Part shown: positions 29,929-33,674 of the stretch, piece by piece
How positions within the stretch are numbered: position 1 is the stretch's first letter
Layout: every line of letters begins with the position of its first letter
Source of the DNA: Ferrithrix thermotolerans DSM 19514
Lineage (GTDB): Bacteria > Actinomycetota > Acidimicrobiia > Acidimicrobiales > Ilumatobacteraceae
DNA length: 42,400 bases
Direction: 5' to 3'
Assembly: GCA_945861025.1 (NCBI GenBank)
Contig: CAMASN010000026.1
Location: forward strand, 1-42,400
Position numbers and translations under genes: made by a program
The notes under the pieces: generated by a model
Database searches by the model: none
What the model was told of the DNA's origin: nothing
Seen by the model: only the letters and a program-made list of their open reading frames with translations

Positions 29929-30046
29929 CCGGCCATCGTAGATCGTTGTGCGCACGAGGGAGCAACCCTTCGAGGGCATGGGCCGATCGACCCAATTTGC
30001 ATGAAAAGCGTTGCGACCAGAGCGCCATGTGCCTATCTTGACGCCG

Positions 30047-30577
30047 ATGAGTGATCTGGACCAGCGCCTGCGCCGTTATGTGGCTGCAGCAATTGAGGGC
30101 GACGACGTTGCCATTCGCGAACTGGTTCGCGCTACCCAGCCGATCATCTGGCGCATGTGTTCAGCGCTTGGGTCGCCTGGCGAAGAAGACGATCTCGTGC
30201 AAGAGACGTACATTCGCGTGCTTCGCTCGCTACCCAGCTACCGCGGCGAGGCCTCGGTTACTGGTTGGATGCTGGTCATTGGCCGGCGGGTCTGCGCCGA
30301 CCATGTGCGGTCTCGTCAACGCCAGCGCCGTTTGGCCGAGGCCCTCACGACCAATGCCACCGACAGCATTTTTGCCAACTCAGACCCTGCGGTCTGGGAG
30401 CTACTCAAGAGTATTGACCCTGATCGTCGCGAGGCATTCGTGCTGACCCAAGTGGCCGGCCTGTCATACGAAGAGGCTGCTGAAGCAATGGGTTGCCCCG
30501 TGGGAACCGTGCGGTCACGTGTGGCCCGCGCCCGGGCCGATCTGGCCACCCAAGTACGCGCCGCGCAGGCGTCGTAG
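30047..30577 (+). CDS. ECF-subfamily RNA polymerase sigma factor
   Basis: 176 residues from ATG 30047 (an earlier in-frame start at 30011 adds 12). Region 2 spans ~20-90 with EEDDLVQETYIRVLRSLPSYRGEASVTGWMLVIGRRVCADHVR. Region 4 spans ~115-170 with REAFVLTQVAGLSYEEAAEAMGCPVGTVRSRVARARADL, a standard helix-turn-helix. ECF factors switch on stress or envelope regulons. No anti-sigma gene follows: a terminator overlaps the stop and a tRNA comes next, so its control must lie elsewhere. Confidence 0.93.
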   Translation: MSDLDQRLRRYVAAAIEGDDVAIRELVRATQPIIWRMCSALGSPGEEDDLVQETYIRVLRSLPSYRGEASVTGWMLVIGRRVCADHVRSRQRQRRLAEALTTNATDSIFANSDPAVWELLKSIDPDRREAFVLTQVAGLSYEEAAEAMGCPVGTVRSRVARARADLATQVRAAQAS

Positions 30578-30601: not shown

Positions 30602-30602
30602 G

Positions 30603-30675
30603 TGGGCGATACCGGTCTCGAACCGATGACCTCTACGGTGTGAACGTAGCGCTCTACCAACTGAGCTAATCGCCC
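30603..30675 (-). tRNA. tRNA-Val (anticodon CAC)
   Basis: A 73-nt minus-strand cloverleaf: acceptor GGGCGAT/ATCGCCC, D arm AGCTCAGTTGGTAGAGC, anticodon stem CTACG/CGTAG with loop TTCACAC (CAC), T arm ATCGG..CCGGT and discriminator A. No encoded CCA. It faces the terminator of the ECF sigma gene. Confidence 0.95.
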
Positions 30676-30748: not shown

Positions 30749-31366
30749 TCATCGCGACCCCGCCAATCGAACGCATACCTGGCCCATGCCCTGTCGGTCA
30801 CGGTGCGACTCGGTTCCTTGGGTGCACACCGCATCGAACGAGATCAGCGAGTGCACCACACCGTCGTTTGCGCCGTTACACAGCACCTCAATGGCATCGC
30901 CGTTGTCGGCGATATCAACGCACGAGCCGGCCTCGATGAGGTTGTCGGGCTTGAGCGGAGAACCCGGTTTCGTGAACGCCGCGTTGACCAGCACGAAGGC
31001 AATTCCGAGTACGCCCATCACCGCCAAAAATCGCCACGGAAACTTCGATGGCGTGGGCGCAATAACCAGCTGCTGCACCGCCGAGGCCGCGTTCGACGCA
31101 GACGCAGACGCCGACGCCGACCCGCCCGACTGCGCTGCGCTGCCGTAGGCGGACCGACGAGACCGTTCGAGGCTCAGGTCGTAGGCAGCACGCTTGGCAG
31201 GGTCAGAGAGCACCTTCCAGGCGTAGTTGATCTCAGCCATGCGAACAGCCGAGGACTCGCCTTTGGCGTCAGGGTGAAAACGCCGCGCGAGATTGCGATA
31301 CGCAACGCGAATGTCTTCGCGACTCGCTGCAGGCGATACTCCGAGGCATTCGTAATAGTCGACGAT
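30749..31366 (-). CDS. Membrane-anchored J-domain protein, start codon unclear
   Basis: The frame is open from 31375 to 30749 (a TAA stop precedes it at 31376-31378). From ~31363 it encodes VDYYECLGVSPAASREDIRV, a helix, the J-domain HPD motif in RRFHPDAKG, and NYAWKVLSDPAKRAAYD, a complete J domain that would stimulate DnaK. After an S/A repeat linker comes one membrane helix (FLAVMGVLGIAFVLVNAAF) and a ~75-residue exported domain with two or three cysteines. No ATG, GTG or TTG occurs in frame before the J domain. The first canonical start is ATG 31240, which would remove HPD. An ATC at 31366, or a one-base frame change after GTG 31370, are the options. Confidence 0.7.
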   Translation of the reverse strand: MVDYYECLGVSPAASREDIRVAYRNLARRFHPDAKGESSAVRMAEINYAWKVLSDPAKRAAYDLSLERSRRSAYGSAAQSGGSASASASASNAASAVQQLVIAPTPSKFPWRFLAVMGVLGIAFVLVNAAFTKPGSPLKPDNLIEAGSCVDIADNGDAIEVLCNGANDGVVHSLISFDAVCTQGTESHRDRQGMGQVCVRLAGSR

Positions 31367-31412
31367 GCACCTACGTTAGACAGCCAACGCCGCGAGCGCA
31401 TCGCTGAGTGGA

Positions 31413-32336
31413 CTAGTAACCGCGATCGTGGTGAACCGGGCCGATGAGCTCTGCGCCATCGGCGTACAACCGCACGTTTTGGGTGATGCGCGCCGACAGC
31501 AACGGCACCGCCATCTCTGGAGTGTTTGCCACATGCGGCGTGATGATGCAGTTGGGCAGCGACCACAACGGGTGCCCGTCGGGAAGCGGCTCAGGGTCGG
31601 TGACATCGAGACCGGCGCCGCCGATGATGTTGTTCTGCAACGCCCACACCAGATCGTCGGTGACAATGTGTTTGCCACGCGCCACGTTGACGAGCCACGC
31701 ATGCGGCTCCATCATCTCGAGTTCGCTGCGCGAGATCATGCCCTCGGTATCGGGAGTGAGCGCAAGCGCCAGCACTACAAGGTCGGCGCCTGGCAGGCAA
31801 TGCGCATACTGCTCGGGCTCGACCACGATGTCGGCGCCATCCATGTCTTGCACCTTGTTGCGAACCACGGTGACATGACAATCGAACGGCTTGATGAGAC
31901 GCAGGAACGCTTCGGCTATGCCACCGCCACCCATAATCGTGACTCGCGCTCCAGCAAGGTTGATGCCCTGTGGCCGGCTCCACGAGGTGGCTCGCGCATA
32001 GGTTCCGAGACCGCGCATGCCCGCCAACGCAAGCGTGAGAGCCATCTCGGCACAGGGCTCGGCGAAGACACCTTTGGCGCAGGTCCACAAGCGATCGGTG
32101 TCGATCAGATGGACAAAGGGCTCAATGCCGGCAAAGGGCAACTGCACCCAGCGAATGTGATCGGCGTCGGCGAGTGCGTCGGCGAGTTGGTTGGCATCTT
32201 TGCCGCTCGCCCAGACCAATGCTTCAGCATCGGCAAGGTCAACAACTTCTCCACCGCCGGCGATGATGGCATCGGCCATCCAAGACGGAGCAGATGTGGG
32301 CCCGAGCGCGACACGGGGCGCGTTGGTACTTGGCAT
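31413..32336 (-). CDS. D-isomer-specific 2-hydroxyacid dehydrogenase family protein
   Basis: 307 residues. The NAD-binding loop appears as VTIMGGGGIAEAFLRLI. The catalytic set is the Arg of NVARGKHI, the Glu of DPEPLPDGHPLW and the His of TPHVANTPE. The family oxidises or reduces 2-hydroxyacids with NAD(H). The substrate is not predictable. It starts 12 bp after the amine-oxidase gene and so belongs to the pot-linked gene run, where it might act on a keto or hydroxy acid from amine breakdown; that is inference. Confidence 0.9.
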   Translation of the reverse strand: MPSTNAPRVALGPTSAPSWMADAIIAGGGEVVDLADAEALVWASGKDANQLADALADADHIRWVQLPFAGIEPFVHLIDTDRLWTCAKGVFAEPCAEMALTLALAGMRGLGTYARATSWSRPQGINLAGARVTIMGGGGIAEAFLRLIKPFDCHVTVVRNKVQDMDGADIVVEPEQYAHCLPGADLVVLALALTPDTEGMISRSELEMMEPHAWLVNVARGKHIVTDDLVWALQNNIIGGAGLDVTDPEPLPDGHPLWSLPNCIITPHVANTPEMAVPLLSARITQNVRLYADGAELIGPVHHDRGY

Positions 32337-32348
32337 GATGCCGAAACG

Positions 32349-33674
32349 CTAGCGGTTCGCGAGGAGTCGCGACGCAACCGTCTCGCCGCTCTCGACTGCG
32401 CCCTCGAGGTAGCCCGTCCAGGTTGCGGTGTGCTCACCAGCAAAGTGAATGCACCCGTGAGGCCGACGCAGCACATCCCAGAAGCGAGTGATTTCGCCAG
32501 GACGGTACACGGCATAGCTGCCGCCAAATAGCGCAAGCCCCGACCATGCTTGCGAGAAGCCACCCAGCGGCGGCGGCAGTGCTGGGTACATCTCGCGTTG
32601 GCTGAGTTCGATCTCGCGCATGCGCTCGCTCTCAGCAAGATCAGCCAAACGCGTTCCGCCCTCACCACCGGTGTAGCCCATCAAGATTCCGGACTCGGCC
32701 GGATGCCCAACCGTTGGCTCATACACACGCTGCGCACGACCAGTTGTTGTGGCATAACCAGCAGGCCACACGCGCTCCGGATACTGCAAGGCTGTCTTGG
32801 TGACACGGCCGTAGCCAAGACCGTGCACGGCCGCAGCGAGTTCGGGGGGCAATGGTGGGTCGAACACCACAGCGCGCAGCGGCACCAAGGAGCAGGCAAG
32901 CACCACCTGGTCTGCGTGGTACGTGTTCGCTCCGGCGCGCACGTGAGCGCCAGTTTCGTCGATGGTGACTGCATCAACTGTCTCGCCAAAGCGAATCATT
33001 CCCGGCGGAAGTGCCTCTGCAAGTCCGGCCGTGACGCCGCTGACTCCCCCAATAATGCGCTGCGCCACGACCTCGCCATGCGGTGTGGCCGCTGCTTCGT
33101 ACAGCGCCCGCTGTTGAGCAACAAACAACGCCGACACTTCGTGCGGTTCGGCCGCGAACTCGCCCTGCATGTTTCGTGTGGCGAACAGGCGGGCGAGCTC
33201 ACCCAGTTCGAGTTGCTCGATAACAGCTGCTGCCGACAATGAATCGAACTGCGCCGCCTGCGGGTGCAGTGCGGGCTGCGACGCATCACTGATGCCCGCC
33301 GCGACTGAGGCAAAGAAGTCTTCGAACCGATCAAGTTCGTCACCTAACTGCGGGTCGATGCGGGCGAGGTCTGCTGGATCGAGCAGTGCTCCGTCGCGGA
33401 ACAACCAACGCCGGACGGCAGTCCACGTGGTGGCGTTGTCGTCCATGCGTAAGCCGAAACGATCGACGAGGGCGCGCATGCGGGGATGCACATTGTCGAC
33501 CCACTCGGCGCCCGCCTCGGCGGCTTGGCCATTGATGAACTCAGTGCTGCGGGTGTAGGCGCGACCGCCGACCCGATTTGAGGCTTCGAGCACAGCGACA
33601 TCGCACCCGGCGTTGTGCAACAACTCCGCGGCAGTGAGACCCGCGAGGCCTGCGCCAACAACAACAATTCGCAT
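32349..33674 (-). CDS. Flavin-containing amine oxidase
   Basis: 441 residues. The N-terminal FAD-binding dinucleotide motif VVVGAGLAGLTAAELL is followed by NRVGGRAYTRS. The C-terminal FAD-contact segment is GCIHFAGEHTATWTGYLEGAVESGETVA, typical of the monoamine/polyamine oxidase family. It oxidises an amine to an aldehyde with release of ammonia and hydrogen peroxide. Located 12 bp downstream of the potC-like gene in the same run, so the imported polyamine, or a derived monoamine, is the likely substrate. No signal peptide; cytoplasmic. Confidence 0.93.
   Translation of the reverse strand: MRIVVVGAGLAGLTAAELLHNAGCDVAVLEASNRVGGRAYTRSTEFINGQAAEAGAEWVDNVHPRMRALVDRFGLRMDDNATTWTAVRRWLFRDGALLDPADLARIDPQLGDELDRFEDFFASVAAGISDASQPALHPQAAQFDSLSAAAVIEQLELGELARLFATRNMQGEFAAEPHEVSALFVAQQRALYEAAATPHGEVVAQRIIGGVSGVTAGLAEALPPGMIRFGETVDAVTIDETGAHVRAGANTYHADQVVLACSLVPLRAVVFDPPLPPELAAAVHGLGYGRVTKTALQYPERVWPAGYATTTGRAQRVYEPTVGHPAESGILMGYTGGEGGTRLADLAESERMREIELSQREMYPALPPPLGGFSQAWSGLALFGGSYAVYRPGEITRFWDVLRRPHGCIHFAGEHTATWTGYLEGAVESGETVASRLLANR

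Follow-up and report, generated by a model that had tools for sequence, protein, structure and literature searches.

A conserved ATC codon behind a -10-like box as the predicted leaderless start of a membrane J-protein gene in Ferrithrix thermotolerans

How is a gene translated whose reading frame encodes a complete J domain and offers no ATG, GTG or TTG ahead of it? The question is raised by the minus strand of the window, by which we mean the whole 42,400-nucleotide stretch of Ferrithrix thermotolerans DSM 19514 analysed here. The initial annotation had put forward three answers, namely that ATC at 31366 is used, that a one-base frame change follows GTG 31370, or that the sequence is in error. 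Leaderless initiation is commonly taken to require AUG, with GUG as a second option in actinobacteria. We consider it probable, taking the explanation as a whole, that the gene is nevertheless expressed from a leaderless mRNA whose 5'-terminal AUC would act as a weak start, with low synthesis and restraint by IF3.

Reading frame and encoded protein

The open frame extends on the minus strand from TAA (31378-31376) to TGA (30751-30749) and comprises 208 codons. At the gene start the minus strand reads ...gtc TAA CGT AGG TGC ATC GTC GAC TAT TAC GAA..., and the codons leading from the TAA to the J domain (CGT AGG TGC ATC GTC GAC) include neither ATG, GTG nor TTG, at the coordinates given by the initial annotation. 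The first in-frame ATG lies at 31240, downstream of the HPD motif. That a complete J domain with its HPD is in frame with a membrane protein was likewise confirmed, by the Pfam DnaJ match and by the open frame itself (Table 1).

A fold search matched the J domain to known J-domain folds (best Z 12.0, rmsd 1.4-1.6 over 70-71 residues); its list was filled by J-domain matches and barely probed the fold of the C-terminal domain. The linker is of low confidence in the structure model. The four cysteines of the C-terminal domain are invariant among 25 aligned sequences, and the Septum_form profile (PF13845) matches this domain weakly in 4 of the 25 members (best E 0.0013), the window protein not being among these four. 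The weak likeness suggests that the outer domain could take part in envelope work with DnaK at the membrane. The window protein thus resembles DnaJ-domain (J) proteins in its complete J domain with HPD and differs from them in being membrane-anchored and in its weakly Septum_form-like, four-cysteine outer domain; no further DnaJ domain was matched by Pfam.

Directly downstream of the J gene, on the minus strand, lies a tRNA-Val (CAC) at window positions 30602-30675. An ECF sigma factor gene on the plus strand (window 30011-30577), distinct from the one treated below, converges on the tRNA and the J gene.

Table 1. Positions of the J gene, its parts, its neighbour and the related loci discussed in the text
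Feature	Position	Strand	Remarks
J-domain / membrane protein gene	30749..31366	minus	205 codons and a stop when counted from the ATC; open frame, DnaJ match
J domain	31178..31360	minus	residues 3-63; Pfam PF00226 (DnaJ), E 2.4e-19
HPD motif of the J domain	31276-31268	minus	
Predicted transmembrane helix	30974..31036	minus	residues 111-131; helix in the structure model over a hydrophobic stretch (sequence reading)
C-terminal beta domain with four invariant Cys	30764..30922	minus	structure-model strands 149-201
-10-like promoter box TAACGT (TANNNT)	31373..31378	minus	contributes the in-frame "stop" TAA
ATC start codon, predicted +1 of the mRNA	31364..31366	minus	same position in 8/8 genus loci
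D-2-hydroxyacid dehydrogenase-like gene, upstream of the J gene	31413..32336	minus	Pfam 2-Hacid_dh_C; ends before the J-gene promoter
SigM-like ECF sigma gene, predicted leaderless ATT start	G000:C2:62378-62974 (L261; start 62974)	minus	
Genus g4 orthologues with Shine-Dalgarno-like site and ATT/ATC	L118-L121, L127-L132, L134, L135		not the leaderless layout

The ATC codon and its -10-like box in the genus and the genome

A J-gene match at E 1e-16 is present in 8 of the 9 genomes of the genus. Comparison of the start region among orthologues, recommended by the initial annotation, located an ATC at this place in all 8 loci, with no canonical codon between the ATC and the stop; in G003, where the stop lies further upstream, none was found within the 14 codons before the J-domain anchor. 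The same ATC is found in G001, G002, G003, G004 and G007, which are diverged and have the full start region, and in a truncated copy in G005. The G008 copy is weak as independent support because its contig (L031) matches the window base for base along 2,267 bases and has 70 mismatches in the rest of its 3,316 bases; the contig may contain a recombination junction, be a mosaic assembly or be a mis-binned piece. Among the three options proposed at the outset, use of ATC 31366 is therefore the one supported by the 8 genus loci and by loci of other genera described below, and we regard this codon as very probably the start of the J gene, judging from the aligned loci.

TANNNT is the actinobacterial -10 box. 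The TAA that had been taken for a stop is the first half of a -10-like box of this form, a point that escaped the initial annotation along with the conservation of the region and the existence of a second gene, although it had correctly seen that a start codon is absent. When six genus sequences were compared, TA..GT alone proved constant within the 12 nt before the ATC, and its T, A, G and T always stand 6 nt before the ATC (box variants TAACGT, TAGCGT, TACAGT and TAAGGT), and no Shine-Dalgarno motif is common to the six.

To place this spacing in context, we use a leaderless scan of 1,552,673 bases of the window's genome (G000; ~54% of it), in which codon use identified 1405 genes. TANNNT occurred at spacings of 6, 7, 8 and 9 nt before ATG in 91, 77, 58 and 34 cases and before GTG in 54, 45, 26 and 19 cases, with a background of ~4-6 per spacing; before ATC the counts were 6, 3, 3 and 5, which is background. 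Within this ~54% of the genome, TANNNT at 6-7 nt was not enriched before ATC, ATT, ATA, CTG or TTG. We accordingly rejected the idea that this genome uses AUC starts generally, only ATG and GTG being enriched after the box in the part scanned.

Since ATG and GTG genes with a box at 6-7 nt are common, we read this spacing as a mark of leaderless transcripts, and the J gene shares it with ATC in place of the canonical codon. A chance pairing of box and codon is unlikely because just 94 of 54,899 ATC triplets (0.17%) in the 1.55 Mb have TANNNT 6 or 7 nt upstream. The J gene thus has a -10-like box within the ~6-9 nt before the start codon that characterize leaderless genes, and departs from the rule drawn from Mycobacterium smegmatis reporters that the 5' triplet be ATG or GTG. 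The box and its spacing make a leaderless J-gene mRNA highly probable. From a promoter TAACGT this near, RNA polymerase would begin the transcript with the A of the ATC, a placement of the transcription start based on the consensus box, and the resulting mRNA would have no leader and AUC as its first codon.

The scan returned 13 ATC or ATT codons with a box at 6-7 nt, 8 of which have no canonical codon in the 12 preceding codons. Two of these 8, the J gene and a gene for an ECF sigma factor, have coding signal and no canonical codon for the next 42 and 23 codons, respectively. Another (C4:488) has none for 28 codons, but its coding score is negative, and the other five have a canonical codon within 1-6 codons after. 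As a separate observation, at the start of the upstream dehydrogenase gene (window 32334-32351, minus strand) TAGCGT is followed by ATC ATG, with the box 6 nt from the ATC and 9 nt from the ATG.

Distribution across the family and alternative readings

J-gene matches at E <= 1e-30 were obtained in 158 of 221 family genomes, and start regions were read at 114 loci, two of which were assigned by eye (L101 to ATC, L011 to canonical). At 25 of the 114, ATC follows a box at 6-7 nt with no canonical codon nearby; the spacing is 6 nt in 15 and 7 nt in 9 of them, and the 25th (L101 in G142), anchored by eye, has 6 nt. A further 8 loci combine ATC and a box at 6-8 nt with a nearby canonical codon. Two g41 loci among these 8 (G165 and G166, box at 8 nt) look like chance occurrences, because the other 11 g41 loci are plainly canonical. 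Canonical starts occur at 69 of the 114 loci, and AUC is therefore not indispensable.

ATC with the box is present at 8/8 loci in g1, 8/8 in g36 (two with TTG or GTG further up), 2/2 in g39, 1/1 in g35, 1/1 in g8, 3/7 in g11 (two more having GTG nearby) and 4/18 in g34. Genome G235 (g43) has two J-gene copies (L098 and L103), one starting with ATG and the other showing the ATC layout with a TTG close by. Among the 14 canonical g34 copies, 5 have an ATG one or two codons before an ATC (four copies) or ATT (one copy) at the start place of the relatives, as if the ATG had been added to an older start. Outside the family, 14 loci were read, of which 1 (G400) fits a leaderless ATC, 10 are canonical and 3 are undecided.

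The ATC label has to change 7 times on a 125-row protein tree, and well supported branches force at least 5 of these changes. The tree left out L018 and L019 (short) and L161 (poor). The 30 rows labelled ATC include G400 (another family) and five that also have a canonical codon nearby; G159, G165 and G166 are not among them. The ATC state has therefore arisen or disappeared on several occasions and persisted between them. That relatives have long kept an AUC start suggests a deliberate brake on the amount of protein.

A Shine-Dalgarno-like motif at J-gene starts is confined, among the loci read, to genus g4. There, 11 of 14 loci have a non-canonical codon (9 ATT, 2 ATC) behind such a site with no canonical codon nearby, and 1 further locus combines the site and ATT/ATC with a canonical codon nearby; the motif is just AGGT in four loci, and G063, with ATC after GGGTG, was counted as canonical owing to a nearby GTG. 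Because g4 has swapped the leaderless layout for a Shine-Dalgarno-like site yet kept a non-AUG start, the weak codon itself would appear to be selected.

The same genus lends weight to the best surviving alternative, according to which AUC is the start but lies on a leadered mRNA, produced by read-through from the dehydrogenase gene and read through a weak ribosome site, with the box incidental or secondary. Besides the g4 pairing, an AGG upstream in the window copy and G-rich spacers in several relatives are in keeping with this alternative. We nonetheless deem it unlikely, as the four box bases and their 6 nt spacing are common to the six genus sequences whereas a Shine-Dalgarno motif is not, and as the other ATC copies that lack a canonical codon nearby likewise have a spacing of 6-7 nt. 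We thus retain the leaderless reading.

It is very improbable that translation begins upstream, at GTG 31370 or elsewhere, and reaches the J frame by a frameshift, whether programmed or fortuitous. GTG 31370-31368 does overlap the start region, one frame off, but a programmed frameshift calls for a conserved upstream start in another frame, and this GTG exists at only 2 of the 8 genus loci (G000 and G008), against 8/8 for the ATC. In G003, G004 and G005 a GTG occurs elsewhere, in a different register; in G001, G002 and G007 the 12 nt ahead of the ATC contain none. The frame change suggested originally fails on this ground. We give equally little credence to ATG 31240 as the true start; it is the first in-frame ATG, but it would yield a protein without HPD and reduce the upstream stretch to a relic, whereas codons 2-44, ahead of this ATG, have a mean pN/pS of 0.32 (uncorrected, 15 pairs of six genus genomes), by which measure the segment is under purifying selection, and the H, P and D of the motif are invariant in both alignments (13 and 25 sequences). 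Least probable of all is a sequencing or assembly error that took away a canonical start, as had also been proposed, because the identical ATC recurs in diverged genomes both within the genus and in several further genera, even if this is a draft genome of 104 contigs and single-base errors do happen.

Predicted AUC initiation, a possible role of IF3 and a second candidate gene

On the leaderless AUC mRNA, the initiator tRNA would pair with the first codon with a third-base mismatch, giving rare initiation, and IF3 would hold this initiation down, as for infC and sigR. By analogy with these genes, IF3 gating of J-gene translation is a realistic possibility, somewhat short of an even chance. 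A likely purpose would be that the membrane-anchored J-protein is kept scarce and released when IF3 or ribosome status changes. The passages of PMC5472188 that deal with these genes report that the GTC start of Streptomyces sigR is repressed by IF3 and that Streptomyces infC starts with ATC, and state that start-codon prediction assumes ATG, GTG or TTG. The sign of an IF3 effect on leaderless mRNAs is uncertain because the relevant parts of PMC9031893 report both directions: raised IF3 inhibits some leaderless mRNAs, and low IF3 enhances leaderless translation, which may need IF3.

Like sigR as described in those passages of PMC5472188, the J gene is actinobacterial with an unusual start codon that would limit translation, and the second gene found here also encodes an ECF sigma factor. 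The two differ in that sigR has GTC, an extensive ribosome-binding site and measured IF3 control, whereas the J gene has ATC, a predicted leaderless mRNA and an IF3 control that we infer. With infC (AUU/AUC/AUA start), the J gene shares an AUH start kept long in place of ATG, but infC has a Shine-Dalgarno-like stretch and encodes the factor itself, whereas the J gene is predicted to be leaderless. The J gene starts, as infC and sigR do, with a codon other than ATG, GTG and TTG, and its genus copies share no supporting Shine-Dalgarno motif. At the infC loci read here (L164-L190; frame alignment and our own reading), ATA stands at the expected start in 16/16 family loci, and five loci from other families of the same order have ATC there, one further locus being unreadable; a Shine-Dalgarno-like stretch precedes infC, ggagTGA in most loci. 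As infC has ATA in 16/16 family loci, AUH starts are likely used in the family.

In the M. smegmatis reporters without a Shine-Dalgarno sequence, as given in the pertinent passages of PMC4633059, only ATG or GTG initiated translation at the leaderless position, with 547 exceptions among 343,242 reads, and ATC served as presumed negative control; with a Shine-Dalgarno sequence, at the leadered position, ATT was enriched and ATC reached just 0.2%. By this rule, as far as those passages state it, the g4 form fits and the leaderless ATC form does not, and a conserved leaderless AUC is unexpected. The J gene resembles the actinobacterial leaderless mRNAs described there in having a promoter directly upstream and, as predicted, a 5' end that coincides with the start codon; those mRNAs differ in starting with ATG or GTG, with ATC treated as non-initiating.

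The excerpted account of the Staphylothermus marinus L12ae gene (PMC2678158) offers a parallel, since an ATC start was there too concluded from an alignment with no valid start codon present; that case differs in being archaeal and a single gene in one genome. In the portions of the texts concerned, the AUC start of Bacillus subtilis rny is a laboratory mutant (PMC10303841), and the phrase on an ATC start in Neisseria refers to a disrupted gene copy (PMC10210955). A literature search for leaderless mRNAs with an AUC start codon found no publication, and among the matches listed for ATC or AUC start codons, most concern mitochondrial genomes and no title refers to leaderless AUC starts. If the leaderless AUC is indeed kept across genera, the ATG/GTG rule would have natural exceptions, such genes would be liable to mis-annotation, and control by IF3 may extend beyond infC and sigR. 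The natural variants with ATC, ATT or ATG at one geometry would provide a test case for start-codon choice without a leader.

The SigM-like ECF sigma gene (L261) is the sole case besides the J gene, among the 13 boxed ATC or ATT codons of the scanned part, with coding signal and no close canonical codon on either side. Its best NCBIfam model is SigM, with a score below the model's cut-off, and by our own reading it overlaps a downstream gene for a protein resembling a membrane anti-sigma factor. Matches to this gene were obtained in 64 of 121 genomes, and the 32 family loci that we read come from among the best of them. ATC or ATT stands 6-7 nt from a box in 13 of the 32, and 9 of these 13 have no canonical codon within three codons on either side, although in some of the 9 a GTG lies at a greater distance upstream, nine codons away in L262 and L263. 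L266 has ATC at 5 nt from the box; the same geometry holds with ATG in three loci and with GTG in one, and 15 loci, including L338, which is cut by a contig end, are without such geometry. The case for a non-canonical leaderless start is weaker for this gene than for the J gene. We tentatively suggest, as a conjecture somewhat less likely than not, that the family has a small set of AUC/AUU leaderless mRNAs, comprising at least those of the J-protein and the SigM-like ECF sigma factor, both of which would be IF3-sensitive, so that the state of IF3 and the ribosome would act as one switch for envelope and stress genes in a leaderless non-AUG translational regulon.

A special initiator tRNA with a GAU anticodon was considered and, on the loci read, judged unlikely: the 30 tRNA loci read, out of 42 hits in the genome, contain one ordinary-looking Ile-GAT and three CAT tRNAs, one of which has initiator-like features by our own reading. 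The remaining 12 hits comprise three inside the loci read and nine not among them. Coding sequence preceding the first canonical start was indicated by a scan in 22 of 736 genes, including infC and the J gene. Such coding signal is also seen in an 84-codon ORF (G000:C10, minus strand) and in a 307-codon ORF (G000:C45, minus strand), which are possible additional cases of non-canonical starts.
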